A stretch of DNA of 64,000 nt, from the NCBI GenBank assembly GCA_030272585.1, contig BSYQ01000011.1, positions 3,286,001-3,350,000 on the forward strand. The letters run 5' to 3'. Of the stretch, positions 4,701-56,734 are shown in pieces (the first letter of the stretch is position 1; every line of letters starts with the position of its first letter). The notes beneath the pieces were generated by a model. The model saw nothing but the letters and a program-made list of their open reading frames with translations. It did no database searches and was not told the DNA's origin. The position numbers and the translations under genes were made by a program. Source of the DNA: Bryopsis sp. KO-2023. Lineage: Eukaryota; Chlorophyta; Ulvophyceae; Bryopsidales; Bryopsidaceae.

Positions 4701-7700
4701 CTTGATCCTTGGGTCGATACCCGGGTGCAATACCTTCTCCACATCCGTCTGGAGATGAGCCGGTGGGGTTCCAGTAGCGTTCAGCTGTTCCTCTGGAAGT
4801 CCCGGATACGGATAGTGCATTAAATGCGACATATCCTCCGGTGTGGTCTCTCGAACAACCACAAGGTATGCTTGATCAATTTCCGGACTGTTCTTCACCA
4901 ACGAGAAAATCTTTTTTGCTGAAATCGACTCTATTTCTGGGGAAAGAAGCTGTAGATAATCTGATGGCCGTTCCTTCATTGGAACCGAGGTCCATCCAGC
5001 TCCTACTGGCACTTTTAGCGTACCTCTTGCAAAGTCCAGTCTGGGATTGGTTTGCATCAACCAAGGAAGCCCTAAGATAATGTCATATGACAGGTTGGGA
5101 AAAACGTCTGCGGAAAGGGTTGTGGTATAGGTACCCATCCGGATCTGCAAGTTTTCGCAACGCTGTTCAAGTGAACATAGGGTTCCGTCCGCTAGTGTGA
5201 CTCCCTTTTTACACCCAGTAGTCGGTAAATTCAGTCTCGCTGTCAACTTTTTGCTGATGTAGTTCTCCGTAGCACCACTATCAACGTAGGCGGAGATCGG
5301 TACTCCTCCTAATCGAGCTCGAATCTCATATCCCATGAATTTCAAATGGTTAGATCCCCCTAGTGGTAAAATACGCTCAGAAGGTGAATGCTGACCTTCT
5401 TCCACTTCCGGATCTCTACCTGTTCCCTGAACAGGGGCTGCTGACTCGTCAGTTGGTGGTGAGCGAGTTGCAGGCTTATCTACACCCTTGTCTGGACCCT
5501 TTTCCAGACTTTTGTCGGGTTCCCTTCCTTCAGGAATTCGTTTCGTTCCTTGAGGCGGAAACGATACCGAATCTTCACTTCCTGGAGGACTACCAAGGTC
5601 TCCATGAACAGAGTTAACAGGTTCTGAATCAACTTTGGAATCTGTTTTAGTAGGCGTGCTGCACCTACTGGATCGATCTCCCAACGTAGCACTCATTATC
5701 GATCCCTCTGCACCTTGGGTAGCATTCTTTTCCCGTTCACCTGATGCTTCTTTATTCTCTTGCGCTTGTCGAGCCACCCTTCCTTTTCGTAGGAGTTTTC
5801 GGCGCTGTTTATATCTGTGGCGGCGTGCCCTTTTCCGTCTTGCTGAACGAGTCTGGGCTCTGTTCAATTGGCTTTTCCGTTTTAACCATTTCTTGAACTT
5901 CTCACCTTCCGGACATGTACTTTGGATGTGTCCAGTTTTTCCACACATAAAACACTTGGGGTTTGCGCCTCCTCCTCCTCGTCCTTGGTCTCGACCACCA
6001 CCTCGTCCACGGCCTTGGCCACCACCCCGTCCGCGACCTCGACCACGTTCTTGACCCACGTTTTGGGCTTGGTCTTGAGGTTGCGACTGATTTCCCATCT
6101 CGTTTGTAGGACCAGTCTGGGGTTGGTTCTGCTTTTTATCCTGGCCTTGACCTCGGCCTCGAAAGGTTCTGGATGAAGCGATGGCATCCAGTCTAGCCGC
6201 AGTCTGGATCGCCTGCTCAATGCCATAAGGCACCTGAGCGACAGTTTGCTGTTTTATATGGAATTTTAACCCATCGACGAAGAAGAAGTATTGCTCTTCA
6301 TCCGTCATATTGGGGATTCTCAATACTTGTTCCCGGAAAGAAACAATGTATTGCTGCACCGACCCTGTCTGTTTCAGGCCTCGAAGAGTGCGCCTGGCAA
6401 CATCAGACATTCGTGCGGGTTCGAATGCTTGAACCAATTCCTCAACAAACTCTTTCCAGTTCGTAACTGGTTTTCTTTTCCCTTCCCGTATACGCAGGTC
6501 CTGAACGTTCCGCCACTGAGCAGCAGCTCCGGTCAGGTTACTGCGGAAGAGCCTGAACCATACGCTCTCGTCAATGTCCAGAGTTTGACAGTAAACCGTC
6601 ATTTCCAGCTGCCAATCTCTGATCCATTGCTGGCCATCTCCTGAGAAAGCCTTGGGTAAAGGAATACGGACAGATGACGGAATCCGTCCGTGACGATCCT
6701 GCGGGGCGGCAAAGCCTTGGTTTGGGTCTGGCGGACCCCCACCTTCACCTCCACCTCCTCCACCACCACCACCACCACCACCAGGGCGGTATGGCCATCC
6801 ACCACCTCCTGGAATAGAAGGGAAAGATCCCCCTCCGTTACCAGGAAATCCTCCTCCGTCTCCACCTACAGGACCACCTCCGGGACCACCTCCGGGTCCA
6901 CCTCCACCACCGCCAGATCGATTTCCACCCTGTGGCTGGCCTGATGGAGGTGAGGGATACGAACCCCACCCGTAATACGGGTTGCTCATGGAAGGTGTTC
7001 CGTATTGGTTCACGGATTGTCCCATGGTTGGTCCCATGCTTGGTTCCATGCTTGGTTCCATGCTTGGTTCCATGCTTAGGCCCATACCTAGTCCCATGCC
7101 TGGTTGGGTACTAGAAGACGGACTAGTATAGAGGATTGTTGTGGGTAAAGTTGCCGGTGGTTGTGTTAACATGGATGACACATGTGGTGTACTCACTGTA
7201 GGAGGAGTTATGCTAACAGGTCTGGACGAACGTCCCACTAAGGGTGTGTCCACTTGACCCGCTTGGCCGAACGATGTCCCCATTGCCAGAGTTGCCGGCG
7301 GGGATACAGATTGAGCTAAGTTGGCAAATACGCTCCTCGTGAAATATTCATGCGCACTTGGATTGCCAACAAAGTCTGAGACAGTTGTGGATGGGTTTTG
7401 TAGCGAACCAAGTCCTCCTAAAGTTGTGAGACCAGAAAACGTATCCAAATCCGGAAAAGGTGGTAACGGAATTGGTATACTGGTCAGAGGTTTTGGTTGC
7501 TCTCCAGGAACGCTTGTGAGTTCAGCTATCGTGGTCGGTTCCTGTAAAGTTACCGTACCAGTTCCTGTACCCATGATCCCTACTACGACTGAGTCCTGTG
7601 CTGGAACTACACTTTTCTCTCCAACTTTCTCTCGTCTTTTCCATGCACTTAGGGTCTCCACAAGTTTCGAATCAACATACTCGGAAAGATGGCTTTCCCA

Positions 7701-8603
7701 AGTCTGTTTTTCCGCTGTCGCGTCTGATAGAAAGGTTTCTACCATCTGCATCGACTCTTGTCCTCCTGCCGTGTCTCCAGAACTAGAACTTACACTGCCT
7801 CGGTCCGCTCTCCAGTGTCGGTTTTGTTCCTCGGCTTGTTCCATGTTCTGTAGCACGTTTAAACTTATGTTCACCAAGTCAGTGAGTTGATGGAGTTGGT
7901 TTTGGCAGTACTCCTGCTTATTCCGAGACTTAATCACAGTGTTTGCAAGCTCGCCAATTGTCTCTTGTTGAAGGTGCATTCCTCCAACCATCTCAGTAAT
8001 AGTCGTTTGAAGCGCCAGAATTTGCTCAGCTCTTAGCTTGTCCCGCTGCTTCTCTTCCTCAGCTTTGTCAGCTGCTTTTTCTTGCAATCGGGCAATCTGA
8101 GCGTTCAACATCTCCTTGTTGTCAAACTTTTCCAAGGGATGATTGTCGGTCCATGGGAAAGATTCTATCTTTTCCTCCAACAATTCCTGCTGTTTGTTCA
8201 GCATCTGTTGCTGCCTTTTTATAACCTCAGCATTATGCTCAACCAGCTTCTGGACTTCTTTTCGAACGAAGAGGAAGTTGTCCTCGTATTCCTCCTTGAG
8301 ATGAGACTGTACGTTTTGGATCTGGTTTTGGACCTCCAGGTTCAGTACAACCTCCATTTTTTCGTCATACTTTTCCCCGGGCTTTTCCAACGACTTTTCG
8401 GACTCTTGTCCTAAGTCTTGGTTTCCTTCCGGTTCTCGAACCTGGTCAGGGACATGTCTCTCCCACTCTCTTTTCCTTAGCTGTTGCGCCAGTGGGTGCA
8501 CCACATTCGAATATACCACTGGAATCGATTGATTCTCATCCACTCGCTTTTCCTCAGGAGGAGGGATATGTGGTAGTTGTGGTGTTTGGTTAGACATTTC
8601 CAC
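1749..8603 (-). CDS. Gag-Pol polyprotein of the chromovirus (2,284 aa)
   Basis: A single frame carries all expected Ty3/Gypsy parts in order. Residues about 30-330 form a charged coiled-coil N-terminal extension. A Gly/Pro/Met-rich linker follows, including short Met-Glu-Pro-Ser repeats. The retrotransposon Gag core is at about 660-760 and a CCHC knuckle (CFMCGKTGHIQSTC) near 880-895. A basic linker leads to the aspartic protease with DSGATENYIS near 1107. Reverse transcriptase carries FIDDILVF near 1489. RNase H is near 1640. The integrase HHCC region is near 1840-1880 and its DDE core at about 1900-2050. A chromodomain (YLVLWKGYDLMEATWEP) is near 2210-2270. The chromodomain would target insertion to marked chromatin. 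The gag-pol frame looks whole. Fused Gag and Pol in one frame is known for several chromovirus lineages. Confidence 0.93.
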   Translation of the reverse strand: MEMSNQTPQLPHIPPPEEKRVDENQSIPVVYSNVVHPLAQQLRKREWERHVPDQVREPEGNQDLGQESEKSLEKPGEKYDEKMEVVLNLEVQNQIQNVQSHLKEEYEDNFLFVRKEVQKLVEHNAEVIKRQQQMLNKQQELLEEKIESFPWTDNHPLEKFDNKEMLNAQIARLQEKAADKAEEEKQRDKLRAEQILALQTTITEMVGGMHLQQETIGELANTVIKSRNKQEYCQNQLHQLTDLVNISLNVLQNMEQAEEQNRHWRADRGSVSSSSGDTAGGQESMQMVETFLSDATAEKQTWESHLSEYVDSKLVETLSAWKRREKVGEKSVVPAQDSVVVGIMGTGTGTVTLQEPTTIAELTSVPGEQPKPLTSIPIPLPPFPDLDTFSGLTTLGGLGSLQNPSTTVSDFVGNPSAHEYFTRSVFANLAQSVSPPATLAMGTSFGQAGQVDTPLVGRSSRPVSITPPTVSTPHVSSMLTQPPATLPTTILYTSPSSSTQPGMGLGMGLSMEPSMEPSMEPSMGPTMGQSVNQYGTPSMSNPYYGWGSYPSPPSGQPQGGNRSGGGGGGPGGGPGGGPVGGDGGGFPGNGGGSFPSIPGGGGWPYRPGGGGGGGGGGGGEGGGPPDPNQGFAAPQDRHGRIPSSVRIPLPKAFSGDGQQWIRDWQLEMTVYCQTLDIDESVWFRLFRSNLTGAAAQWRNVQDLRIREGKRKPVTNWKEFVEELVQAFEPARMSDVARRTLRGLKQTGSVQQYIVSFREQVLRIPNMTDEEQYFFFVDGLKFHIKQQTVAQVPYGIEQAIQTAARLDAIASSRTFRGRGQGQDKKQNQPQTGPTNEMGNQSQPQDQAQNVGQERGRGRGRGGGQGRGRGGGRDQGRGGGGANPKCFMCGKTGHIQSTCPEGEKFKKWLKRKSQLNRAQTRSARRKRARRHRYKQRRKLLRKGRVARQAQENKEASGEREKNATQGAEGSIMSATLGDRSSRCSTPTKTDSKVDSEPVNSVHGDLGSPPGSEDSVSFPPQGTKRIPEGREPDKSLEKGPDKGVDKPATRSPPTDESAAPVQGTGRDPEVEEGQHSPSERILPLGGSNHLKFMGYEIRARLGGVPISAYVDSGATENYISKKLTARLNLPTTGCKKGVTLADGTLCSLEQRCENLQIRMGTYTTTLSADVFPNLSYDIILGLPWLMQTNPRLDFARGTLKVPVGAGWTSVPMKERPSDYLQLLSPEIESISAKKIFSLVKNSPEIDQAYLVVVRETTPEDMSHLMHYPYPGLPEEQLNATGTPPAHLQTDVEKVLHPGIDPRIKTVLTTFQDVFPKDLPPGIPPVRKGHEFKVDLEDEQMTPIHRPLYKLSPAELDEVRSQVDYLLEQRKIRPSESPWGAPILFVPKKDGGLRMCVDYRWINKFTVKNRYPLPLPEELMDRLARAKIYTKIDLRSGYWQFPVRPKDTPKTAFRTRYGHYEFLVCPFGMTNCPAQFQTMVQDLLGEFLDDFVVVFIDDILVFSNSVEDHVEHLKLVFERLRKHKLYAKASKCEVGVLETDYLGYHLSGKGLQPMQDKVEAIQRWKELTSVTDVRSFLGMVSYYRKFIPEFARIASPLTDLTKKDTVWEWGQNQRKAYNELKDRISRAPILLLPDPAREYTVITDASGTAYGAVLTQDHGKGLQPIAYLSRRLKPAETRYSAYERELGAIAYAVAQWRHYLEGCHGGVTVLTDHKPITHFMTQATLSRTQTRWMRSGFFDSIGPKIVYIQGKANVLADALSRSLPGQPDQIKNLSTWEVAEKDTWKEALRSDTKLKPIFEKMERGVSPQYQLEDGFLYYTRTETGPSLLVVPEDFQKRILEEHHDVPSAGHVGADRMTEVLTRNYWWKGVGLDIKTYVKTCPTCQLNKSDLQRQKGLLQPLPIPDQKWEQITTDLVTDLPSSHGFTAIAVFVDRLTKYARFVPCNKTITAPEYAKLFVENIYKHYGLPKVIVSDRDPRFTSLFWTSLFKLLGTQLRMSTAYHPQTDGQSEVTIRVLEDFLRPYVERYPDRWVDYLPTAEFAANNSRNVSTGYAPAHLLYGQNMGQIVVARKGVRTGEQSEMAAEMVRNMNEQMRMAKAKYAEAQTRMCNSANKRRREVNFQVGDEVLVKSKFIPLASLQRIPPKIRRRFVGPFRVTSRIGAVAYRLELPEHWTIHSTFHVSKLKAYSRLDDDQREIEVPGGELVDGTIEFEVERILRDRGTTRKEYLVLWKGYDLMEATWEPESHLANAQDLLKEYLANKPENRQRTQSKEKTTEKTKKKTKTQRRTRT

Positions 8604-9727
8604 TGAGTTGATCCAACTGGAATTTCGGCGTGCAGGACGGTTTCTAGGAATGGCTTGGAACTTTTCCTAGGACTTTTCGTAGAACCGTTGCCAGAACTTC
8701 CTTAGGTTTAACCCCAGAACTGTCTTGGGTTTAATCCCAGAACTTTCTCGCGTTCTGTCTTGGGTTTTATCCTGGGTTTTATCCTAGGACTTTCCCGGGA
8801 CTTTTCTGGAACTTTTCTGGCGACAGGTCTTGTCTTGGACCTGTTCTCCGTCTTGTTTTGATGACAGACTAACGTGTGTGACTCTAACCCGTTCGTGATT
8901 TCGTTTCCAGCCGATTTAGTAATCGAGTCTGGAGTTAGGCGGTGCGGGATTGGTACACGGAAAGTGTGAGGTCTAATAGTTGGACGGGGTGACAGACTTT
9001 CTGGTAAAGTCTCGCTCCCGTTCTACAACTTTCTCCCAACCTTTCTCGCGACCTTTCTCACGACCAGTCGCACTCTTTTCGTGCCTCCAGTCACGGGTTT
9101 AGTTAGCGACTGAGCTGCGGGTTTTCTGATTTCTGGCAAGTCGTCAGAAAATCGTACTTCGCGCTCTAAGTCTTTTTCTTTTTTTCGTGGGGACAGGTCG
9201 CCTACTTTCTCGACGCCTGCGTTCCCCTGAGTTCACACTTCCGTCGTTTTTCGCCTCCTTTCCAGATCACAGATCTGGCTTGCTTTTTTTCTTAGATCTA
9301 GATTACTTTTTTTCTTAGATCTTTTTCGCGACTTCGCCAGGGACGAACGACCGGCGACGACGAGTCGACGCGGTTCGTTGTTCGTTTTTCGTTCCCCTGT
9401 TCGCCTCCTTTCCGTCGCTTTACTGTGAGTTCGCCTCCTTAAAAAGATCTGTCGATCTATCTCCGAAACCAAATGATATAGGAATCTGCAGATTTTCAGA
9501 TCTTCGCCACTACTTTCGCCAGGACGTCAAACGACGACGCGACGACGTCGTTTGCACTTGCTATAGGGTGCTCGCCCTCGTCGTTGCCCCTCCCAAGCGT
9601 CGCCTTAGCGATCGCTTTCGTTTTCGAATTTCTGTGGGTTACCCTAATTTAGGGGTTGACCTCGCTTTGGGGGGGCTCGACCTCCTTTTGTAGTTGCGCC
9701 TGGTTTCGCCTAAGCTCCGAAACCAAA
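8604..9727 (-). other. Leader/untranslated region of the chromovirus
   Basis: About 1.1 kb between the 5' LTR and the gag start without a supportable gene. It is rich in TTTCTCGCGAC, CTTTTCGTAG and ACTTTTCT-like words that recur irregularly, which suggests short internal repeats. It also holds the second copy of the LTR-end/primer-site string at 9464-9485. Confidence 0.5.
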
Positions 9728-12690: not shown

Positions 12691-15600
12691 CTAACTGATT
12701 TTCAATTGCCTAGCTTTGAGGGTGAACTCTCGAGCCTCATCCCCGGTGACTACTCTGGCGGTCGATGGAGGAAATTTCGGTTTCAAGGGCCTTTCTATTC
12801 GAGCATAAGGGTTGATATCTCGACCCGACCAAACATCGGCACCATCCTCTACTGACTTCGGAGGGGGCATGACCGCTAATAACTTCCCATCCGAATCAAA
12901 AATCGACAAATCTTTCCCAAACCGCCTCGTTACCCAATGCAACCTCTTCAGACTCAGCTTTTTCCCCAGGGTCAAAGCGCAGGATTGCTTGAGAATATCA
13001 TACAGCAAAGAAAGACAATGGTAGTTATCCGCAAACTGGTAATAAGCCAAGAACATCCTTGCAGTCACATCATAATACTTGACAATTTCATGAGCTTCCC
13101 AGTGAACCAATCTCCCCACGAATGTCGGCCTCCGTTTCACGGGGTCAGTAAAACCACATTCTTCCAGTTTTAGCATCAAATGTCGAGCAGGGACGCACAT
13201 TCTGGGCGTGGTGGGCAATCTGGTGTTTTCCTCACGGATCGCCGAGAAACCGGGAATCGATAGTTGGGGTGCCACATAAATCTCTGCTCCTAAAAACATG
13301 ACGTATTCTTTGTCTGGGCTTGATGAGCTGGCAATTTTCGAGTAGGCCCCTTTCGTGGGCAGAGCGAGTTCGTTACGAACAAACCACTGCAGATCTTTTT
13401 CGACCCGAACGGCATCGTCCGAAGAGCCGTTGATACCAATCAGAAAATTCCCACCGTATCGAACATACTTAATCCCAGCCATTGTCCACTCCCTCCAACA
13501 GAAGGCTGGCTGGATCCTGCGTGACGCCCATCGATCACGATTGGACACCACATTCGCCCGAGCTTTCGTCGAACCGCCGCCACCGACATTTTCATCGCCC
13601 ACCTCCAGGCATCGAATCAAATCCTCCATGAACAGGTCCAGTTTATGTAAATAGATGTTGCACATGATGGGGCTGACGAGCGTCGTCTGGGGTATGCCAA
13701 TACATCGATAGCACGCCTCAGACATGTCTAGATATCCTGCCCGAATCGCCCTGTTCACCAGCATAAGAAACTGATCGTCCCGAATTCGAGTTCGTAGTGC
13801 ATCCATCAATGCACCCTTTTCGAACCCAGCCATGCACTGACTGATATCCACCTCCAGGAAATAATCCACCCCTCCGAAATTCTGTTTCACTTCCTTGAGC
13901 GCCGAGTGGCAGCCTTTGTCTCGACGAAATCCATGCGAGAGTCTCGAGAAATTCTGTTCGAAAATCGCCTCCAGAACCATCCGCATTGCTTCCGGCACCA
14001 TCTTGTGCCACCATATCGGCACGCTTTCAAATTGCACCCCTTTGGTTTTGTTTCTTGGCTCCAGCTGGCTGGGATGAGGGAAAGTGTAAACGCCAGTTTC
14101 GAGTCTTGCAGCAACTTTGGACACCCAAGACTTGCCCACCTGAATTTCATTTCACAAGCAAAAAAAAAAAAAACAAGCCACACTTTTTGCACGAGATCCT
14201 CAAAGTAATGCATAAACAGCATCTAACAAAAAGGAGTAACCATCCGGAAGCAGAAGTCTCAACCCGGAGAGATATGCCTTCACACGAAACCTTGACCTTT
14301 CATTTCGGACAAACTTAATCCAAATTCACAACCGCTTCCAGGAGCGTGCTGGTTACACTGCAGCGATCACAAAATTTTCACATTTGCGATCGCAAGGGGA
14401 AAAGAACGCTTTCTCTTAAACAAAATGGACTCCAGTACAGCAATGTTGCATCAAGCTACATACAAGCTAAACTCTTGTGCCACACTGTCAGATCGCCACC
14501 CCTTGTTCGACTCACAGAGTGATGCCAAGTTCCATAACTCAGGAAACACTTTTTGTTTTTCCTGTCGCTTTGAGAACAAAACACACACCTACCTCCTCGA
14601 AATGCTTCTCAGCTTCGGAAAGATGCCCATGGCGCAAATACATGCTCAAAAACGCACTTTCCAGTACTGAGGGGTCCGTCAAAATCTTCATCACGTTCTC
14701 GTTCACCAGATGCGGATCGGCTCGATTTTGCCGTTTCAGGTTTTCCAGGACAGTCACCGACCTGAGCGACGAGTTCCTCAATTTGACTTCCCATGCATGA
14801 TACGATAAGCCCGAGGGGTAAGCTTGGAATCTGCCAGCGGGTGGAGAGGGAGCGCTGGAGGTTGCGTTTGTGGAGGAGCCTGGCATCGATTGAGGGAGGT
14901 TGGCTTCGCCCAATTCGGGTGGCCTGCCTCTGGGTGGATTGCGAATTTCACTAGCTCCGCCGGAAGATCGAAACTCATCTGAGAGACCACAGCATGCGAT
15001 CAAATCGATTGATTTGATTTGCTTGTGAAGGAAATCCAACAAAGCAATGTCGGCATCGATACTCAACACAAGAGGCCTTTACTTTCTTTTTCTATTTTAA
15101 TAACACATAGTTTTGATCTCTTAAGGTGCAGATATGAGGGGTCCAAAAATACGAGTTCCCCTTGGTGTAACTTCTTTATTAACGATCATAGCAGCATTAT
15201 CATCAAAATTGTATTAAAGATCAATTTTTTCAACGAAAAGGCTTACATGGTCTTACAATTACAGCTCGAACAATTTCGGATTTTTTTTTGGGTATATTTG
15301 GAGTTGATTGTTTAACAACACCTAAAATGATATCTCCAATTTTAGCAAATTTTCGACCTCCACAATTTAAAATGCGAATACACATAGCTCCACATGCCGT
15401 GTTTGTCAAGATGATTCTGCATATTTTTTTGTTTAAAAAATTATCTGCTTGTTTTAATTTTTGTGTGAAACAAAACCACACCTATGTCCTCTCGATGGCG
15501 TTTCGACCCATTTTTTCGCTTCAAAATCTCCAAAGATGCCAGCGCTTTTGCATCGTTCGACGAAGAATTTGCACCATTTCGATGCTGACGTCCGTTTTCA

Positions 15601-25639: not shown

Positions 25640-26739
25640 TCATCCTCCATCTTTCGCATCTGAAAAAAGCTCGTCATCGTCTTCGACGTAATTCATTCTT
25701 TTCCTGGCTGTTTTCCTCAACGGCCTTTTCCTTTTTGGCTGTGATGCGGTGGTGGTCGTAACGGTCGAATCCGAACGACTCCTCTTGTGAGGTCTCGAAG
25801 AAATATGCTGGTCAATGGCTTCGTCGCGAGCCTCCAATCGCCAGCCGCCCCCAGCAGCAGAGAAACACACCAAAAACTGACCAATTTCAGCCCCAAGGTG
25901 CTTCTTCAGTTCTTTGGATTTCGTCAGCGAGTAATACCCTCCAGATTCCTTTTGCCACCACTTGATTTCGCAAGTATAGCGCTTCTTTCCGACCTTTGCC
26001 TCGCCGACCTCGACGTCCACCGCGTAAGGCTCCGCCTGCCGACTGACATCGTGATAGAGCGATTCGAATTCTGCCAAAGGTAATGTAACGTCGCTGCGTT
26101 TCGTATTGACATCGCTGCTGGACAGCCTTTTTTCAAACAGCAAGCGGCCACAGCGTCGAGGGGGAATTCGCCGAACGCCATTGCCTGTCGTTGGGGTCCA
26201 GACCCTCGGGGAAGAAGATTTCGGCTTTCCAAAAACTTCCTCTCGCGCCGCCGGCGACACCGCCGCCACCGCCACCCCGCTAATCCTGGATGAATTTCCC
26301 TCGTCGCGCTGTGAACACACGCACAGGGTTCAACCCTCTCAGCCATCAATTTACGCTGATAAGCCTAAGTAAACACACTTTTTCCCCCAAAGCGTGGAAT
26401 ATGATTCACACAAAATCGAAACTGCTACAGCGTAACGCCAACCTGTCGGAGAGAATCGCACGCAACGAAATTCGGAGGCGGCACTGGGGGCTGAGCGAAC
26501 GGCATGGGTTGGCTTGGTGGCCATTCTGTTATTCCCCTTTGCCACATCCATTGACCCGGCGGTGGCTGCAGCGGCGGCGGCGGAGGTGGCGGAGGGGGAG
26601 GCGGCGGCCTCGCTGACGACCTCCGAATGGATTTAAAATTTGATATTGACGACTCCGTTGGCTTCCAGCGTTTCCCGCATATTTCCAAACCAAATCGGCT
26701 CGTCGAGGGTGGATCTCGCCGAGTGCCTGTGGGCGACAC
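25640..26739 (-). CDS. Unrecognised basic, proline-rich protein (two or more exons)
   Basis: The 3' exon is 25640-26308 (first codons CGC GAC GAG) after acceptor TTCACAG. It joins in phase 0 to an upstream exon that ends at donor CGACAG|GTTGGC (about 26443). That exon is open to about 26739 and encodes a run of 12 prolines and then QPMPFAQPPVPPPN. An in-frame ATG (MWQRGITEWPP) lies just after the proline run, so the true start is uncertain. The 3' exon has a folded-looking block of about 100 residues (VTLPLAEFESLYHDV ... CEIKWW ... YYSLTKSKELKKHLGAEIG ... FLVCF). It loosely resembles a B3 DNA-binding domain, but I cannot confirm that. A basic tail, PKRKRPLRKTARKRM, looks like a nuclear localisation signal, and the end is acidic (VEDDDELF). 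A nuclear role is inferred only. Confidence 0.55.
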
Positions 26740-28870
26740 AGTGCGTTTGTTATGGCGGCCTTCGCGTTACTAATCCTGACACTGAACTGCAACTGGGAAA
26801 AGCCATCGCTGAGGTCAAGAAAAGTAGAACACACTGCAACAGTTCCAAGAAGGCAAACTGGTTTAGGACAATGATTGATGGCACTGAGTTGGAAACACAA
26901 AAAACAATATAAAAAAAAACTATGTATGTGTATATAAAATATTATGTTGAATGTGTGGCTAGCATCCCCACCAGGCGTCGGTTCGTTATCGTCCAATGGC
27001 TCCGTTTCCCCACACAATAAATCATCTGTCTTTCCCTTCAGCACACAACAAAGTTCCAAAAAAAAAACCCAGAAAAAAAGCAAGTCAGCTGACCATCCGG
27101 CCAATATCAATACATGTGAGGTTCACAGCTCGATAAATGCATTTAAATAAGCAAAATATTTTAATAATAATAATAAAAAAAACCAGAGCCAGAAGATACA
27201 ATGGATGTATCGTCATTGCATTTATGTACAAAATCTTTCTTTCTTTCTCCGGCCTTTTCAAAAAAGACCCCCCCCCCCCCCTCCTCCTAAAACCCAACAG
27301 GAAAAAATGACATAGGGAACAGAGAAAACAGATTCGGAAGCCTTTTTTTCAAGTTCGACATATGTGCATGTTTTGTGAAAGCAAAAGGATCAGGTCTTTT
27401 AGAAAAACAAATCGTGCGCATGCCTGCATTGCTGTGGATTCAGCCATAGAAACTCCATCATAGTCCGCTCTTACTCGTGTCAAGAGTGCATCTCCACCTG
27501 CACCCACACCACCATTCTTTCTTTCTGCATGAATCACTATACAATACAAAATACAGAAAAAAATATTTATTTTGAGAATATTATTAAAAAGAAAAATGAC
27601 TATTATGTTATTATGCTGTCTAGAAACGGCTGAAAGCAATTGTTTGTCCGTCGTTGAATGTATCGACCTCACGTCTGCATCTTTCAGACCAACTTTGAAA
27701 AAGACCGTCAGCAATTCGAGGATGCATCCATGTGTCTAGTGCCTACTCTTGCTTTCGTATAATACTAACATACAATATATAACATAATTTGAAATCTTTT
27801 AAGGTGGTTCTAAGCAACTGAAGAAGTCATATCAATGGCGAGCACAAACTTGCAGTTTTTTTTTTTCTTTTTTTTTTGGCATCCCTGGAAATGTGATCCT
27901 TCCCAAATTCAAGAAAACTTCTTTTCGAAAGGTATCCCAGAAATTCACCAAATCAATATGCTCAAAGGAAGCAGACATGATAATAAATCCTATGAAAAAA
28001 ATGTGTTTCACTTTTCCAGGAATTCCTTTCACTTTCAGAAGCAGTTCTAAAGAACGTGGGACGTATTGTGCGAATAGCTTGGTTCGGACCCATTCTGACC
28101 GGACAGGGTGTTGAGGCAAAACGTGACGTTGGGGGAGAAAGCGTCAACACTAAGATACGCACGCGTTAAGACATGCATTCCGACACGGTGCGTTTCATCA
28201 TCGTGCAGCCGAGCATTCCCAACCGTTACAGACACGTTTTGCCGTGGAATCTTAAACCCCGCCCGACATCCGCCGGAACAACTCGGAATCAAAAGCCTAC
28301 GTCGACACGGGGCGGAACCAGACGCGAGTCTCAGAGCAACTCGAATCTACTTCACACACGAAAACTGTCGATGGCTTCGGCTTGCGACCCGTTCGAATCC
28401 CCTGAAGCGTAACGCGTCGGACAATCCTCCGAGACAACTCGCCTTTTGCATAAAGTCGCACTCTTTCCGTCGACGACATAATCCTGCCTACGTCGACACT
28501 CTCGGCGCCTCAGCCAGAAGCAAAAGACGCCCAACTGTCAAAACACGGACAACCGATCCCTCCGTTTCTGCCACGGACTCATTTTCGAGCTCCCAGAGTT
28601 TCTGGATGTTGCACGCGCTGCCAAGCACCCGCTTACGTGATCGTAACCCCCCCTTCAAACCGAGAATCGTCATTTCGCCAACGATCGCAGCCTTTTAACG
28701 CAAAGCACAGCTTGTTTCTTCCACCTGCACACGGAGAGGTCTGATCGTTGGGGATCCAATTCTGAGTGAACAACTCCAGCAGGAACTGTTCAGAGCGTTG
28801 TTTGCGACCGGAATTGCCTGGCCGACTCAAGAGGAGTCGTCAGCGTCTCCACTTGAGGTCTTTCGACACA
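26740..28870. other. Spacer and 5' region of the Z-alpha gene
   Basis: 26740-28020 is AT-rich with homopolymers and no supported exon. From about 28080 to 28870 the base composition becomes GC-richer with many CpG, consistent with a promoter/5' untranslated region. A 196-codon plus-strand frame (28108-28698) exists there but shows no known motif and is not clearly protein-like. TACGTCGACAC occurs at 28296 and 28488. Confidence 0.45.
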
Positions 28871-31223
28871 ATGGGGGATGGTATGGGCACCTATCCACAG
28901 ATATCCAGCCGCCACAGGTTTCTGCTGTTCCTTGCTTTCAACTTCTCTTCTGAAAGTTGCAGCTCTCCTTTGTTGAGGGGAGGGGAGGGGCACCCACCCA
29001 ACCCCAAAAAGAACGAGTGCTTTACTCATATGTATATATATAGATGCTCACTCATTCAATAATATGTGAAAAGCTTGTTTGTTTGAGGAAGCAGATTAGA
29101 GAGGAAGGGAACCAATGATTGAGGTTGTGTTTTATTTATTTTTTCTCTTGGCTGTTGGGCAGCCCAACTGGAGCTCCAAATCGAAAGGTTGCTTGTGGAT
29201 CGGTACCCTTCAAGTATGACAGCCCTGGAGATAATGCGAGCCTTGGCACTCAAATCAGCGACGAAAAAATCGGTAGGTGTTTTATTGGCGCTGGGGTAGA
29301 GAGCTATATAGGGACATTTGTGATGATCCGGGTGGTTTGTTTCTGAGTCAGACTGTAACTGATTTCCTCGAACAGGCTGCACTCAGCCGTTTGGCCTTGT
29401 GTAAACTACTCTCTATTCAGTGTAATTGGCAACTACTTCTTTCATCCAGCATAACGGCTGGTGATGGTTGAGCTGCTACGACAGTTTGCTGTATTTTTTT
29501 TGGCCTCATGTTGAGAACAGATCAACCGAGTGCTGTATCACCGGATTGCCACCAAAGGGATGGCCAGCGTCAAGGAAGGCACCCCACCATGCTGGACAGC
29601 GACACTCGCCTTGCGGCAGAAACTTGGCTCGGACAAACAAGGGGCGGTGGATGCGTGCAGGGGGCAGCTGGGGAACGGAGCTGGTCAACCTCAGCAGAAC
29701 TGGAGTGGAGGAACTCAAATGATGTCTTATCAGCCCAGTGCAATGGCTCGCAATGGAATGCAATCTTCTGGTAAACACATTGGAGCGGTTTTGTGTTAAT
29801 TATGTTTGTTAATTATACATGCCTCGCCATTGCAACAGAAAATTCCCAATCATTCAGAATTTCCAGAGAAAATTCACTTTTCTGAAGTGCATGTTCATGG
29901 ATTTTTGAAGCAGGGAAAGGAAATGAGTGAATTCAAAAGATAGTCGATTTTTTGAGACAGGTTGAAAATGCTCTGTTCGATTTCTGTGTCAACGAAAGCC
30001 CCTGAAAGAATCTTTGAAATACATTTCGGGTTCGAATCACCACGGAATGAAACACAAGGCTCAGTTTTAGAGAAGAAAAAAGTTCATTCTATTTTCTCCT
30101 TCAAAATCCCCCCGATGAGATTTTTTTTTTCAAAGAGCAAATCCAAACTTGTTTTCGCCCATGCACACCTGGGCAGATCGTCAACTTTTTTGTTTTTGTG
30201 TCGAAAGACACCAAATTACACCAATTTGGGTTGCCCTTTGTTTCAGCTTTGGCGCTGAGTTCCCCATCTCAACAACCCTCAATGCAAGTCATGCAAACGG
30301 CGGTGGGAGTGGTCCAACCCTGCAATCACGTGCATGTTGTTCCGGGGGTGCTGGCCTATTCCACCGGCGGCACTTGCTACGCTTGCCAAGCAGAGCAGGC
30401 ATCATCGCAACCACCCAACCCCCAACCCCAAGGACAATCCCTTGCACAATCAACAACTCAGGGAGCGGCGTACAGCAGCCAGGCAGTCATGAGCCATGAG
30501 ATGGGAAACCAGCACTTGCACCAACATGGGCATTCACATCAGTATCACAATACACGTCAATCAGAATACGGGGGACAGCAAGTAGCCATGTCGACTAATC
30601 ACATCCAACAAGGCGGTGCTGTTGACCCTAGCCAGCTTTCAAGAGGTGGAAATCCTCATCCGAGTGTGCAACATTCTCCACCAGTAGTACATGGCGGGGC
30701 TGGTCACCAGCACCAGCAGCACTCAGGATCCATCAATCATGGAATGGCGTGCTACATGAGCAATGAAGCAAACTCAAGCTACCATATGGCTCAGCCGGGA
30801 GCGACAGGGTACCATCAAATGGGTGGAATTCCTGGTGGTGCTACATACCAGCAACAGCCACAAGGGTATCTTTTTCCGGGAGGGGCTGATTATGGGGTGC
30901 AAATGGGAGGAGGAGGTGGTGGCGGCGCACCAGCTCACGGAAATAGGACCAGCTTATCGCCCACCCAAACCCCAGGGTGTCAGTATCAATATCAAAATGC
31001 TACCCATGGCGTGGGGTCTGTGTTGAGGAATGATGCTGGGGTGTGTGCTCAAGGCTCCGGCTCTGGCAATCTGACTGGAAAGCTTGGTCAGACTTTGACC
31101 GCGGCTGGAATTGTGTATGGGCATCAAGAGCAGGGAAAAGTGGGAGAAGGAACGAATGTTGGTAGCGTTGGGCAAGAGAATGAGTCAGATCTGAATCGGG
31201 GAGGGTACAATGGGGGGGTTTGA
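28871..31223 (+). CDS. Z-alpha domain (Z-DNA/Z-RNA binding) protein with low-complexity tail
   Basis: Four exons in phase: 28871-28880, 29163-29272, 29521-29770, 30247-31223 (448 aa). Exon 1 codes only MGD plus one base before donor GATG|GTATGG; an in-frame stop lies upstream, so this ATG is the first available. Residues about 4-67 form a winged helix matching Z-alpha domains of ADAR1 and ZBP1: helix 1 QLELQIERLLVDRYP, helix 2 TALEIMRALAL, recognition helix TKKSINRVLYHRI, and the wing KEGTPPCW. Every residue known to contact Z-form nucleic acid in ADAR1 has its equivalent: Lys, Asn and Tyr of the recognition helix (KKSINRVLY) and Thr-Pro-Pro-x-Trp of the wing. The other ~380 residues are Gln/His/Gly/Ser/Pro-rich with no fold I recognise (HLHQHGHSHQYH, a Gly run, NRTSLSPTQTPG). 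No deaminase, kinase or RHIM is present. Binding left-handed duplexes is inferred from the domain; the cellular role is unknown. Confidence 0.85.
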
Positions 31224-31982
31224 ACGAAAGGGAGAGTGGAGGGTGGAGGAAAATTGACTGGGGAGTTCTGGAGATTGCACCAGGGAGGGAAGGAATTCAT
31301 GGGTGGCCTTGCCAAGTAAAGGAGTTTTGTTCATGAGAGCCACTTTTGTGTAGGGAGCTTTCGATAGTTGGGTTGGTGTTCTGTTTTTGGAATGTTGCAA
31401 GGAGGGGGGGGTTTGAGCGACGGAGAGATGAGGGCAATGAAGGAAGGAGGTGTTTCGGGGAGAGAAAATTGAATGAGAAGGTTTTTTTGGTTACATATCA
31501 AGCTTGGAGGTCGATAGCAAAAAGCTCTTAATCACGTTTTGCTTTGTATGGTGCCCCACGAGAGCATATATATCGCACCTCGCTCCAATTCGAATCCACC
31601 CACCCTCTTCGCAATCCATCGTGCGCTCTGACCATCCATGTTCGATTGTTTTTCAACTGTGTTTCATTCGCACGTAACTTCATTCGCGCCAACAAACTGG
31701 AAAAGCCATTAAAGAGATTCACATGACAGGTACTCGTTCACAGCACACAGCCCACACCAAATCAGCTTTTGTTTTTTTTTAGCTTTCCAAGCCAACACTG
31801 CCCATAAAGAGCCCCCCCCCCCCCCCCCCCCCTCTTTCCAGAAAACGCCCTAGAGTATTTTATGCACGCCGGAAAGGGAAAGAGGTCTCTGCTGGGGAGG
31901 GAAAAAGAAACGATCACGTTTCGGGACGTTTCGTAAGGTCGTCGTGGAACGAACAGAGAATCGGTTCGTGGGCCTGGATCGA
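31224..31982. other. Spacer between Z-alpha and F-box/Tubby genes
   Basis: 3' region of the Z-alpha gene followed by a C-run of about 21 bases at 31812-31832 and the 5' region of the next gene. No supported coding exon. Confidence 0.55.
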
Positions 31983-33737
31983 ATGTCGAAGGGGAAGCTT
32001 GATTCAGCGAAGGGCACCATGAGCTACGGAGTTCTGCCAGTGGATAGTGGGAAAGGGGGCTCTTGTTGTGGGCAGTGGAGTTCTTTCGATGGGGTGACGC
32101 TTGACGCTCGGGATCGGACAGTAGTCGTCACGTTGTGGGGCCATCTTCCCGAACTCGTACTGGACAAAGTCCTGACGAAGCTTTCTGAAAGCAGCCTCGA
32201 CCATTATTGCAAACGAGTGAGTGGGGGTGCCCTACCGTTTCGTTTTCCGTCGCTATGGTTTCATATGATATTCGATGCTACATTTGATGGGCCTAAACAC
32301 CACTCTCCAGCATGAAGGAGCAGTACACAGTTTTATTTAAAGAAAAATAAATAAATAATAGAATATGTACATATATTTGATGGGGGAAAATATCCACCTA
32401 TTCAAAAACATATGCGCTTTTCTTGAAAAACTTGAGGGACAAAAAGAGAGAGAAAAGAAATTCAAACCCCAAAGTTGTCAACAGAGAATGCACACCTTAA
32501 AACGAAAACCTTCCTCTGTTGTTATCACATCGAAGCTGAAACCCCCTATGTAACTCATTCACTGGGCAATTGAGTGACATGCAACAGCGAAAACTAAATT
32601 TCATTTTTTTCATTTTTTTTTTTTTTGGGGGGGGGGTATTGCAGGCCCTATATTCAGCAGCTGCTGTGTGCAAATGCTGGAGAGAGTCTGCTCTACGAGC
32701 GATCGTGAAAAAATTTTGGAAATCTGAAATTCTATTGACCCATCCAGCACAGCTTCTGGCTTTGGTAAGAAGCTTGAAACTTGATCGACATACATGAATT
32801 GCACTTATTTCCTATTTTGTGTTTTCCTTCTCTCCATTTTTTGCAATCAGGCCAAAGCACCCCAAGTCCTGCCATTCCTGAGGAGATGTCTGGATAAGAA
32901 AATGTAATGGAAATCGAACAAACAAGAACGAAAAATTCTACGTTATGGGTGTCGACAATTGCCAGCCATTCTCCTACTTTTCTGAGTGTATTCTATGCTG
33001 TTCGCTGAGTCGCGTCAGATTTCTTTTTCCTTTCATAGATATATATGGACAGGAAGCCCCCTGTAATCACCACACCATTCCAGTCAAACAAGTGTTACTT
33101 TATTTATCAATAAATAAATAAATAAATAAAATCTTGTACCCGGTACCCGGCACCACTTTTTTTTCCCCACATGTATAAGCGAAAGAGGGAAATACATATA
33201 CCGTAAAAGTCTGAAAATAAGCCCCGGGCGTATAGAATAGTAAGCCCTAAAAAGGGGGCGTATACATGGGCAGGGGCTTATATTCGGGCAGGGGCGTATA
33301 CACGGATCAACTTCGACTTCGTCGATCCAGTGGATGAAAGCGCGCCGAAGTGCTCCGTTTATGTTTCGGAACTCTCGAGTGTGAGTATTAGGCAGTAATA
33401 GTCAATCGAACATGTTGCTGGGGATGTCATTGCGCGAGACGCGAGTTGTACGACCAGGGGGCGTATACACGGACCACGAGTGTTGTTTTTCGTACCGGGG
33501 CGTATACACCGGGGGGGGGGCGTTATTTGAGGGGGGGCTTATTTACAGACTTTTACGGTATATCTAAATGAAAAAATATGCAGAATCTTGGTAGCAGCCC
33601 CCCCCCCCCCCCCCCCCCCCCCCTCCCTCCTCCCAACACACACACACAGAGAGACGCTTTCTTGAAAAAATGAAAAGCACCCCCTTCAGTAAAAAGTGAC
33701 ACTCTCTTTTCTTCCGGGTATGTTGATGTTAAGCTTC

Positions 33738-50861: not shown

Positions 50862-53800
50862 ATGGCGGACCGGCGCGATGCTGCAGCGAAACTGAATGGG
50901 TGAGGGAGCTGCGCGCAGCGCAGCGAACTGGCGAAGGACGAGGGGGGGAGGCGCGAAGCGCAGCAAAGGCGAAGCTAATTCGAAAAGGAAGGGCGAGGGA
51001 GGCGCAGCTCGCTCTTTTTTAAAGGTGATGGGCGAGGTCGCTGGGGGCAGCGCAGCGACCTATCAATTTAAAATTAAAAAAAGTGATGGGGAGGGAGCTG
51101 CGCGCAGCGCAGCGACCGCTTTGAAAGAGTGAGGGGCCAGGGAGCTGCGCGCTGCGCAGCGACCTGTCAAAGTGATAGGTGATGGGCGAGGGAGCTGCGC
51201 AGCGCGCAGCGACCTGTCAAAGTGACAGGGGTGATGGGCGAGGGAGCTGCGCGCTGCGCAGCGACCTGTCAACTGAACAGGTGTGATGGGCGAGGGAGCT
51301 GCGCAGCGCGCAGCGACCTATTCAATTAAAAAGTGTGATGGGCGAGGGTGCTGTGCGCTGCGCGCGACGCCCTCGCCCAGATCTGGTGCGCTCAGACTTC
51401 GAAAAAAAAAAACAAAAACCAACGAAAGAGCGCCTTGGGAAAGGGCGCTGCGCGACTGGCGCGACTTGGAAAAAACAAGGGCGCTGCGCGCGACGCCCTG
51501 GCCCAGATTTGGTTTCGAAAAAGAAAAAAAAAAAAAACACGTTTTTTTCCAAGTCGCGCCAGTCCGACTTCCGCGACTTGGAAAAAAACGAGTTCGCTGC
51601 GCGCAGCGCCCTAGCCCAGATCTGATTCGCTCGGAGTTAGAAAAAAAAACAAAAAAACCCACGTTTTTTCCCAAGTCGCGCCAGTCCGACTTCTGGTTCG
51701 CTGGGAGTTCGAAAAAAAAAAAAAAAACGAAAAAGGGGTTACCTAATGTAAAAAGGGAAATCGAATCTAACTTACAGCTTGTGGTTCGCTGGGAGTTCGT
51801 TCGCTGGGAGTTCGAAAAAAAAAAACAAAAAAAAACGAACAACTGTGACGTTCGATTTTCCTCTCTCCGTCGAAGCGATGAGACGGACCGGTTAATTTTG
51901 GGAAATCGAATGTAATGAGATTTTCCGAGGATCAACGATTTTGTCCCCACGGGGTACTAGCCCTGAGGGCGATTTTCCCTGCGTAGCCGGTCACGCTCCG
52001 CGCGCGCATGTCGGATTTTCGAGGCGCCATGTCGGTCGACGCCGCTCGCATGGCGGACCGGAGCGAAGCCGAATCGAAACTGAATGGGGGAGGGAGCTGC
52101 GCGAAGCGCAGCGAACTGGGGGACGACGAGGAAGGGGGGGCGCGAAGCGCAGCAAAGGCGAAGCAAATTCGGAAAGGAAAGGGCGAGGGAGCTGCGCGCC
52201 GCGCAGCTCGCTCTTTTTTAAAGGTGATGGGCGAGGTCGCTGGGGGCAGCGCACCCACATTTCAAATTAAAAATTGTGATGGGTGAGGGAGCTGCGCGCA
52301 GCGCAGCGACCCCTTTAAAAGTGTGAGGGGCTGCGCAGCTCGCTCCTTTGAAAACGTGTTGGGCGAGGTCGCTGCGCGCAGCGACCTGTTAATTTAAAAA
52401 GTGTGATGGGTGAGGGTGGTGCGCGCAGCGCCAGGGAGCTGCGCGCAGCGCAGCGATCACTTTAGTAAACTGATGGGACAGGGAGCTTCGAAACGGAAAG
52501 GGCGAGGGAGCTGCGCGCTGCGCAGCTCGCTCCTTTAAAAAGGTGATGGGACAGGGAGCTGCGAAATTACAGACGACCACTTGAAAGAAGTGATGGGCGA
52601 GGTCGCTGGGCGCAGCGCAGCGACCTGTTGGAGTAAAAAAAGATATGGGCGAGGTCGCTGGGCGCAGCGCAGCGACCTGTTGGAATAAAAAAAGGGATCT
52701 TAAAGGGATGGGTTAGGTCGCTGGGCGCAGATCTGGTTCGCTGAGAGTTAGAAAAAAAAAAAAACAACGAACGAGCTCCTTGGGAAAGGGCGCTGCGCGA
52801 CTGGCGCGACTTGGAAAAAACGAGGGCGTTGCGCGCGACGCCCTGGCCCAGACTTGGTTTCGAAAAAAAAAAAAAAAAAAACCACGTTTTTTCCCAAGTC
52901 GCGCCAGTCCGACTTCCGCGACTTGGAAAAAACCAAGGGTGCTGCGCGCAGCTCCCTAGCCCGGATCTGATTCGCTCGGAGTTAGAAAAAAAAAAAAAAA
53001 ACGAAAAAGGGGTTACCTAATGTAAAAAGGGAAATCGAATCTAACTTACAGCTTGTGGTTCGCTGGGAGTTCGTTCGCTGGGAGTTCGAAAAAAAAAAAC
53101 AAAAAAAAACGAACAACTGTGACGTTCGATTTTCCTCTCTCCGTCGAAGCGATGAGACGGACCGGTTAATTGGGAAATCGAATGTAATGAGATTTTCCTA
53201 GGATCAACGATTTTGTCCCCGCAGGGTACTAGCCCTGAGGGCGATTTTCCCTGCGTAGCCGGTCACGCTCCGAGCGCGCATGTCTGATTTTCGAGGCGCC
53301 ATGTCGGTCGACGCTGCTCGCATGGCGGACCGGCGCGATGCTGCAGCGAAACTGAATGGGTGAGGGAGCTGCGCGCAGCGCAGCGAACTGGCGAAGGACG
53401 AGGGGGGGAGGCGCGAAGCGCAGCAAAGGCGAAGCTAATTCGAAAAGGAAGGGCGAGGGAGGCGCAGCTCGCTCTTTTTTAAAGGTGATGGGCGAGGTCG
53501 CTGGGGGCAGCGCAGCGACCTATCAATTTAAAATTAAAAAAAGTGATGGGGAGGGAGCTGCGCGCAGCGCAGCGACCGCTTTGAAAGAGTGAGGGGCCAG
53601 GGAGCTGCGCGCTGCGCAGCGACCTGTCAAAGTGATAGGTGATGGGCGAGGGAGCTGCGCAGCGCGCAGCGACCTGTCAAAGTGACAGGGGTGATGGGCG
53701 AGGGAGCTGCGCGCTGCGCAGCGACCTGTCAACTGAACAGGTGTGATGGGCGAGGGAGCTGCGCAGCGCGCAGCGACCTATTCAATTAAAAAGTGTGATG

Positions 53801-56734
53801 GGCGAGGGTGCTGTGCGCTGCGCGCGACGCCCTCGCCCAGATCTGGTGCGCTCAGACTTCGAAAAAAAAAAACAAAAACCAACGAAAGAGCGCCTTGGGA
53901 AAGGGCGCTGCGCGACTGGCGCGACTTGGAAAAAACAAGGGCGCTGCGCGCGACGCCCTGGCCCAGATTTGGTTTCGAAAAAGAAAAAAAAAAAAAACAC
54001 GTTTTTTTCCAAGTCGCGCCAGTCCGACTTCCGCGACTTGGAAAAAAACGAGTTCGCTGCGCGCAGCGCCCTAGCCCAGATCTGATTCGCTCGGAGTTAG
54101 AAAAAAAAACAAAAAAACCCACGTTTTTTCCCAAGTCGCGCCAGTCCGACTTCTGGTTCGCTGGGAGTTCGAAAAAAAAAAAAAAAACGAAAAAGGGGTT
54201 ACCTAATGTAAAAAGGGAAATCGAATCTAACTTACAGCTTGTGGTTCGCTGGGAGTTCGTTCGCTGGGAGTTCGAAAAAAAAAAACAAAAAAAAACGAAC
54301 AACTGTGACGTTCGATTTTCCTCTCTCCGTCGAAGCGATGAGACGGACCGGTTAATTTTGGGAAATCGAATGTAATGAGATTTTCCGAGGATCAACGATT
54401 TTGTCCCCACGGGGTACTAGCCCTGAGGGCGATTTTCCCTGCGTAGCCGGTCACGCTCCGCGCGCGCATGTCGGATTTTCGAGGCGCCATGTCGGTCGAC
54501 GCCGCTCGCATGGCGGACCGGAGCGAAGCCGAATCGAAACTGAATGGGGGAGGGAGCTGCGCGAAGCGCAGCGAACTGGGGGACGACGAGGAAGGGGGGG
54601 CGCGAAGCGCAGCAAAGGCGAAGCAAATTCGGAAAGGAAAGGGCGAGGGAGCTGCGCGCCGCGCAGCTCGCTCTTTTTTAAAGGTGATGGGCGAGGTCGC
54701 TGGGGGCAGCGCACCCACATTTCAAATTAAAAATTGTGATGGGTGAGGGAGCTGCGCGCAGCGCAGCGACCCCTTTAAAAGTGTGAGGGGCTGCGCAGCT
54801 CGCTCCTTTGAAAACGTGTTGGGCGAGGTCGCTGCGCGCAGCGACCTGTTAATTTAAAAAGTGTGATGGGTGAGGGTGGTGCGCGCAGCGCCAGGGAGCT
54901 GCGCGCAGCGCAGCGATCACTTTAGTAAACTGATGGGACAGGGAGCTTCGAAACGGAAAGGGCGAGGGAGCTGCGCGCTGCGCAGCTCGCTCCTTTAAAA
55001 AGGTGATGGGACAGGGAGCTGCGAAATTACAGACGACCACTTGAAAGAAGTGATGGGCGAGGTCGCTGGGCGCAGCGCAGCGACCTGTTGGAGTAAAAAA
55101 AGATATGGGCGAGGTCGCTGGGCGCAGCGCAGCGACCTGTTGGAATAAAAAAAGGGATCTTAAAGGGATGGGTTAGGTCGCTGGGCGCAGATCTGGTTCG
55201 CTGAGAGTTAGAAAAAAAAAAAAACAACGAACGAGCTCCTTGGGAAAGGGCGCTGCGCGACTGGCGCGACTTGGAAAAAACGAGGGCGTTGCGCGCGACG
55301 CCCTGGCCCAGACTTGGTTTCGAAAAAAAAAAAAAAAAAACCACGTTTTTTCCCAAGTCGCGCCAGTCCGACTTCCGCGACTTGGAAAAAACCAAGGGTG
55401 CTGCGCGCAGCTCCCTAGCCCGGATCTGATTCGCTCGGAGTTAGAAAAAAAAAAAAAAAAACGAAAAAGGGGTTACCTAATGTAAAAAGGGAAATCGAAT
55501 CTAACTTACAGCTTGTGGTTCGCTGGGAGTTCGTTCGCTGGGAGTTCGAAAAAAAAAAACAAAAAAAAACGAACAACTGTGACGTTCGATTTTCCTCTCT
55601 CCGTCGAAGCGATGAGACGGACCGGTTAATTGGGAAATCGAATGTAATGAGATTTTCCTAGGATCAACGATTTTGTCCCCGCAGGGTACTAGCCCTGAGG
55701 GCGATTTTCCCTGCGTAGCCGGTCACGCTCCGAGCGCGCATGTCTGATTTTCGAGGCGCCATGTCGGTCGACGCTGCTCGCATGGCGGACCGGCGCGATG
55801 CTGCAGCGAAACTGAATGGGTGAGGGAGCTGCGCGCAGCGCAGCGAACTGGCGAAGGACGAGGGGGGGAGGCGCGAAGCGCAGCAAAGGCGAAGCTAATT
55901 CGAAAAGGAAGGGCGAGGGAGGCGCAGCTCGCTCTTTTTTAAAGGTGATGGGCGAGGTCGCTGGGGGCAGCGCAGCGACCTATCAATTTAAAATTAAAAA
56001 AAGTGATGGGGAGGGAGCTGCGCGCAGCGCAGCGACCGCTTTGAAAGAGTGAGGGGCCAGGGAGCTGCGCGCTGCGCAGCGACCTGTCAAAGTGATAGGT
56101 GATGGGCGAGGGAGCTGCGCAGCGCGCAGCGACCTGTCAAAGTGACAGGGGTGATGGGCGAGGGAGCTGCGCGCTGCGCAGCGACCTGTCAACTGAACAG
56201 GTGTGATGGGCGAGGGAGCTGCGCAGCGCGCAGCGACCTATTCAATTAAAAAGTGTGATGGGCGAGGGTGCTGTGCGCTGCGCGCGACGCCCTCGCCCAG
56301 ATCTGGTGCGCTCAGACTTCGAAAAAAAAAAACAAAAACCAACGAAAGAGCGCCTTGGGAAAGGGCGCTGCGCGACTGGCGCGACTTGGAAAAAACAAGG
56401 GCGCTGCGCGCGACGCCCTGGCCCAGATTTGGTTTCGAAAAAGAAAAAAAAAAAAAACACGTTTTTTTCCAAGTCGCGCCAGTCCGACTTCCGCGACTTG
56501 GAAAAAAACGAGTTCGCTGCGCGCAGCGCCCTAGCCCAGATCTGATTCGCTCGGAGTTAGAAAAAAAAACAAAAAAACCCACGTTTTTTCCCAAGTCGCG
56601 CCAGTCCGACTTCTGGTTCGCTGGGAGTTCGAAAAAAAAAAAAAAAACGAAAAAGGGGTTACCTAATGTAAAAAGGGAAATCGAATCTAACTTACAGCTT
56701 GTGGTTCGCTGGGAGTTCGTTCGCTGGGAGTTCG
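50862..56734. repeat. 2,460-bp higher-order tandem repeat, 2.4 copies
   Basis: Copies at 50862-53321, 53322-55781 and a partial one at 55782-56734. I compared them line by line at an offset of exactly 2,460. They match throughout except for A-run length changes near 55340 and 55445. Within each unit the core module occurs twice, 1,265 and 1,195 bp apart, so the unit is a dimer of two diverged monomers. The left edge of copy 1 joins at ATGGCGGACC after GAAGCG-like sequence, where a deletion between two similar ATG-GGACCGG words probably removed part of a unit. Confidence 0.92.

Follow-up and report, generated by a model that had tools for sequence, protein, structure and literature searches.

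A free-standing Z-alpha family protein with a low-complexity tail in the green seaweed Bryopsis sp. KO-2023

The Z-alpha domain is known mainly as an antiviral domain of animals and viruses, and a locus of the giant single-celled green seaweed Bryopsis sp. KO-2023 (Chlorophyta, Ulvophyceae, Bryopsidales) raises the question of whether a green alga holds such a domain with no enzyme attached, and of what such a protein would do. The gene, deposited as BSKO_12130 (hypothetical protein, Bryopsis sp. KO-2023), lies in a stretch of 64,000 nucleotides (bases 3286001-3350000 of contig C11, hereafter the window) within a genome that comprises 28 contigs and 91,088,769 bases. We found that the N-terminus of its product almost certainly belongs to the Z-alpha family and is followed by a long tail of low-complexity composition.

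The Pfam z-alpha family (PF02295) matched residues 31-68 of the whole protein at 22.3 bits (cut-off 21), spanning profile positions 27-64 of 67, with helix alpha1 outside the scored stretch. A 76-residue N-terminal piece scored 26.6 bits against the same cut-off, and the next models on this piece, a type III secretion helical domain (13.9 bits) and LexA (12.7 bits), stayed far under their own cut-offs. Pfam reported no other family anywhere in the protein, whether the E limit was 1 or 10. Additionally, a sequence search of the PDB (E up to 1) returned 11 distinct sequences, namely nine of ADAR1 (one an MBP fusion) and two chimeras carrying ADAR1 parts, with E values from 5.8e-4 to 0.69, and the best solved relatives were thus ADAR1 Z-alpha domains; a single pairwise BLAST comparison with ADAR1 Z-alpha gave 16 identical residues out of 28 (E 8e-9). 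With a custom profile whose ten rows were mammalian or mammal-like Z-alpha domains, with Bryopsis excluded, the 76-residue domain scored 22.9 bits and the whole protein 18.1 bits, scores that none of 20,000 shuffled domains reached (best shuffle, 12.3). Across the 1,416 reading frames of at least 30 residues in the window, exon 3 of BSKO_12130 ranked first with this profile (13.1 bits; next, 7.5). These results, for a host within the Ulvophyceae, bear out the first-pass annotation of the window, made from the sequence alone, in placing a Z-alpha domain in the green lineage.

The same annotation had matched KKSINRVLY (residues 38-46) and GTPPCW (residues 60-65) to the nucleic-acid contacts of ADAR1, and the match held at all nine contacts listed: K38, K39, N42, R43, and Y46 correspond to ADAR1 K169, K170, N173, R174, and Y177, and T61, P62, P63, and W65 to ADAR1 T191, P192, P193, and W195. 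ADAR1 K169, K170, R174, and T191 are taken here to be nucleic-acid contacts. Passages of Romero 2024 (PMC11298590) single out N173, Y177, P192, P193, and W195 as important and also give NxxxY in alpha3 and pPxW in the wing as sequence criteria for Z-alpha; BSKO_12130 has both, as N42...Y46 and P62-P63-C64-W65. Because the contact residues are kept, BSKO_12130 probably binds Z-form nucleic acid. The net charge of residues 1-72 is +5. A detail absent from the first-pass annotation is that one residue is inserted in Bryopsis between the Tyr and the wing (LYHRIATKG versus LYS-LAKKG of ADAR1), and because of this insertion the pattern Nx(2)LYx[LM]x(8,20)W finds ADAR1 and fails on Bryopsis. In the passage concerned, this pattern, taken from human ADAR, is where the search begins and not a definition of the family (Herbert 2024, PMC11293857), and its failure therefore leaves the Pfam assignment standing.

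The gene consists of four exons with GT...AG introns of 282, 248, and 476 nt, giving 448 codons and a stop. The first-pass annotation had proposed this four-exon model, and its spliced product is identical, letter for letter across 448 residues, to the deposited protein. The parts of the gene, in window coordinates, are as follows.

28871-28880 (+): coding exon 1, 10 bases (MGD and the first base of Ala4), with the same start in the deposited protein
28881-29162 (+): intron 1, 282 nt, GTATGG...GGGCAG, from splicing
29163-29272 (+): exon 2, predicted alpha1 and alpha2 of Z-alpha, then KKS opening alpha3 (AlphaFold helices 2-17 and 24-33)
29273-29520 (+): intron 2, 248 nt, phase 0, which interrupts the predicted recognition helix alpha3 between S40 and I41, from splicing
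29521-29770 (+): exon 3, which completes the Z-alpha domain and opens the tail, from splicing
29521-29595 (+): opening 75 bases of exon 3, coding residues 41-65, which run from alpha3 (INRVLY) into the expected wing (GTPPCW) (Pfam PF02295 match, residues 31-68)
29771-30246 (+): intron 3, 476 nt, from splicing
30247-31223 (+): exon 4, bulk of the Gly/Gln/Ser/His-rich tail, up to the TGA stop (block predicted local distance difference test, pLDDT, at most 55)

The 10-base exon 1 is present in the public gene model too. A small exon 1 of this or a similar kind is needed as a start, because the exon 2 frame (29123-29299) has no Met from the upstream stop to the exon.

The tail (residues 73-448, 376 residues) is composed of G 17.6%, Q 13.8%, S 9.8%, A 8.5%, H 5.9%, N 5.3%, and Y 4.3% among others, carries a net charge of -3, and matched no Pfam family at E up to 10. 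AlphaFold gave it a block pLDDT of at most 55 throughout, on shallow alignments without tail relatives. The tail is probably disordered, for which its composition is the stronger reason and low pLDDT on a shallow alignment a weak one. The description of a Gly/Gln/His-rich tail with no deaminase, kinase, or RHIM proved correct, in that Pfam reports none of those families in the protein; neither PF02137 (adenosine deaminase) nor PF02229 (PC4) matched BSKO_12130. Within the tail, a Cys/His patch (CNHVH...CYAC, residues 149-170, window 30321-30386, +) possibly forms a small metal site. As a shared domain this patch was rejected, since Pfam had no match for it and the genome search turned up no other copy.

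From this domain and tail we infer a free-standing Z-nucleic-acid binder with a clustering tail, the leading reading among its rivals, to which we give about an even chance, a rating that is generous to the clustering step. In this reading, the N-terminal winged helix would recognize left-handed (Z-form) RNA or DNA and would dock on Z-form or Z-prone duplexes, which could be double-stranded RNA of viruses or retroelements, or DNA that is briefly unwound; the tail would then gather these complexes into condensates and so sequester or mark them. Clustering by the tail is proposed as the output because of an analogy with ORF112 of cyprinid herpesvirus 3 (CyHV-3), and on that analogy it falls somewhat short of an even chance. 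The first-pass annotation had also suggested condensate formation, without naming the ORF112 precedent. If it works in this way, the protein would give a green alga an unfamiliar means of reading left-handed nucleic acids.

A possible though rather doubtful alternative is a transcription regulator derived from Z-alpha, in which the winged helix would occupy supercoiled promoters and the tail, rich in Gln, Ser, and Gly, would be an activation or co-activator region, like the chlorophyte Z-alpha linked to p15/PC4. Gln-rich tails are common in activators, which speaks for such a role. Passages of two papers (PMC11293857, PMC11298590) connect published chlorophyte Z-alpha with the p15 (PC4) transcription family, which points the same way. 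However, BSKO_12130 itself lacks a PC4 match, and the PC4-like exons of the Bryopsis genome sit together on another contig, C3. In the genome-wide family scans, which were run exon by exon and whose counts are lower bounds, seven PC4-like exon matches fell within 2.5 kb (C3:7105325-7107767, -; L005-L011), two of them above the family cut-off, a cluster that suggests a protein with several PC4 repeats.

Structure prediction, one of the checks proposed with the first-pass annotation, gave a divided answer. AlphaFold supported three helices (2-17, 24-33, and 38-52; block pLDDT 77-90 across residues 1-50), but the beta wing carrying GTPPCW was not modeled with confidence, and structure comparison of the predicted model brought out no outstanding fold (96 and 715 chains aligned). 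The unpredicted wing and the one-residue insertion relative to ADAR1 could mean that the winged helix retains the Z-alpha look and not the selectivity for Z-form, owing to the extra residue ahead of the wing, and the abstract of PMC11298590 describes bacterial Z-alpha-like domains as unable to bind. We nevertheless regard such a loss as unlikely, since all nine listed contacts are kept in Bryopsis, whereas the bacterial Z-alpha-like candidates carry Ser and Asn at the positions of N173 and Y177 (PMC11298590).

The searches for relatives bear on the origin of the gene. A six-frame search with PF02295 gave no match in the Bryopsis genome or in 14 control genomes and missed the BSKO_12130 gene as well, presumably because the domain is interrupted by an intron. 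In the Bryopsis genome, the protein query matched only its own exons 2 and 3 and revealed no further Z-alpha gene, in a search that split or distant copies could escape. With region 1-80 of the full protein as the query, to which proteins of about 246-784 residues were eligible, the only match at E up to 1 among 51 candidates was BSKO_12130 itself, and an N-terminal 110-residue query drew one candidate and none at E up to 10. A three-row alignment query (Bryopsis, human ADAR1, and mouse ZBP1) gave 19 matches at E up to 10 among 400 candidates; six were named (ZBP1 of four rodents, human ADAR1, and one ADAR1 chimera), and the 13 without names resembled mammalian ZBP1 (12) or ADAR1 (1) by eye. 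The mouse ZBP1 row probably drew most of these matches. No green relative turned up in these homologue searches, whose eligibility limits keep that negative from showing that such relatives are absent. Because the published search motif and the six-frame family search both failed on BSKO_12130, such searches can miss a member, and the spread of algal Z-alpha may be underestimated.

The same want of a green relative would suit a domain or gene acquired from a giant virus or a similar DNA virus and then domesticated, perhaps at first a viral means of blocking host sensing. Passages of PMC11298590 predict 68 putative Z-alpha proteins in giant viruses. Such a viral origin nevertheless seems improbable to us. 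The gene has three GT-AG introns, and three scans of viral contigs gave 127, 74, and 15 pattern matches, none confirmed, although these scans require short pattern matches with tblastn E up to 1e-3 and are hence weak; among prokaryote genomes, none of 22 pattern matches was confirmed. In addition, none of the 15 window frames scanned with Pfam points to a DNA virus. Six of them had a nameable match above or near the cut-off (group II intron maturase, cation-ATPase N-terminus, GST, glycosyltransferase 8, Ty3-type retroelement, and a sub-cut-off F-box-like match), one had a sub-cut-off match to a domain of unknown function, and eight had none. The frames nearest the gene are matchless or F-box-like only: the two next upstream (25640-26329 and 26529-27122) and one just downstream (31854-32315) had no Pfam match, and the sub-cut-off F-box-like match sits just downstream of the gene.

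That BSKO_12130 is an artefact of a wrong gene model or of contamination, for which the mere 10 coding bases of exon 1 could be cited, is very hard to believe of a gene embedded in a 4.6-Mb contig, with a deposited model identical to the spliced product, an exon 4 that stays open for about 325 stop-free codons, and a phase-0 intron that joins the domain halves into a single coherent motif.

The architecture had also been put forward as one not described in green algae, and this stands in part. Green algal Z-alpha has been published before: passages of Herbert 2024 (PMC11293857) place it in chloro- and streptophyta, tie the chlorophyte form to p15/PC4, and describe it as found in green algae and discarded in other plants, with an abstract stating that plants and fungi have not kept the canonical Z-alpha fold, and passages of Romero 2024 (PMC11298590) predict Z-alpha in a p15-annotated phytoplankton protein. 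The word 'Bryopsis' is absent from the main text of the latter paper, and the available passages of PMC8775963 contain no algal Z-alpha. Neither the Bryopsis protein nor an algal protein with Z-alpha and a low-complexity tail was found in the open literature, in a search that left subscription journals largely uncovered. Only the combination of Z-alpha with a low-complexity tail is thus not found in print.

The Bryopsis genome holds RNA-silencing genes alongside the Z-alpha gene, as judged from family matches. Piwi-domain exons above the cut-off occurred on at least eight contigs (C1, C3, C4, C7, C8, C9, C11, and C16; L012-L019), and exons of RNA-dependent RNA polymerase (RdRP) at at least three loci, on C1, C3, and C8 (L021-L028). 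PF02137 matched one genome locus, on C8, whose exon is similar to PDB entries of ADAR deaminases (E 3.7e-6) and which we take to be the tRNA deaminase ADAT1, and the double-stranded-RNA-binding domain had one match in the genome, on C7. If the Z-alpha protein has a role in defense, the RdRP/Argonaute and Z-alpha routes would not be exclusive in Bryopsis; Ixodes ticks are named as having both in a passage of PMC11293857. A bolder proposal, which we hold to be speculative and unlikely, is that green algae run enzyme-free, condensate-based sensing of Z-nucleic acids, in which a canonical Z-alpha reader with a low-complexity tail would capture viral or retroelement Z-RNA or Z-DNA in a coenocyte (many nuclei, one cytoplasm), beside RdRP/Argonaute silencing and convergent with a herpesvirus protein design. 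In any case, an enzyme-less Z-alpha protein in a sequenced macroalga makes it possible to study the effect of Z-recognition by itself outside animals.

Other features of the window were also recorded. A Ty3-type retroelement (1749-8666, -) forms a stop-free frame of 2,305 residues with gag, protease, reverse transcriptase, RNase H, integrase, and chromodomain matches. At 12691-14151 (-), on this nuclear contig, lies a group II intron maturase (PF01348, 65.9 bits, and a sub-cut-off reverse-transcriptase match), presumably of the kind serving organelle introns. A tandem array (50862-58253) has a unit at 2,460-base spacing in three copies, whose 300-base reference stretches are 100% identical, with GCGC-rich sub-repeats of 52 and 104 bases and a further 180-base repeat at 57861-58253. 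The idea that Z-prone DNA, such as this array, marks the window was not supported by the count of alternating purine/pyrimidine runs: one run of at least 10 nt with 80% GC was found (at 37207, outside the array), versus 1.2 on average and at most 4 across 30 shuffles. Rfam gave no match over the window.

Compared with known systems, BSKO_12130 has the recognition helix KKxINRVLY and the wing motif GTPPxW in common with the Z-alpha of ADAR1 p150. It differs from ADAR1 in lacking a deaminase or double-stranded-RNA-binding family match, in the extra residue ahead of the wing, and in the intron inside the recognition helix. ZBP1 and PKZ are likewise Z-alpha readers without a deaminase, but PKZ has a PKR-type kinase domain (passage of PMC11293857) and ZBP1 acts via RHIM domains, according to a published abstract, and Pfam reports neither in the Bryopsis protein. 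The p15/PC4-associated Z-alpha of chlorophyte phytoplankton shares with Bryopsis the presence of Z-alpha in green algae (passages of PMC11293857 and PMC11298590; the methods of the latter mention Micromonas pusilla), whereas the Bryopsis protein has a long low-complexity tail and no PC4 match.

The nearest analogue is ORF112 of the fish herpesvirus CyHV-3, in which Z-alpha stands beside a low-complexity region containing Q and H, a design shared by BSKO_12130 with its Q- and H-containing tail and no catalytic domain reported by Pfam. In passages of Diallo 2022 (PMC9881149), ORF112 has a disordered N-terminal region with Q-rich and H-rich segments in addition to Z-alpha and is found in ribonucleoprotein condensates, and the Z-alpha domain alone is enough for normal viral replication and virulence. 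The low-complexity region of ORF112 is N-terminal, whereas in Bryopsis Z-alpha comes first; ORF112 is viral and its condensates have been seen, whereas the likeness of the Bryopsis protein, whose disorder and condensation are putative, is one of design read from the sequence.
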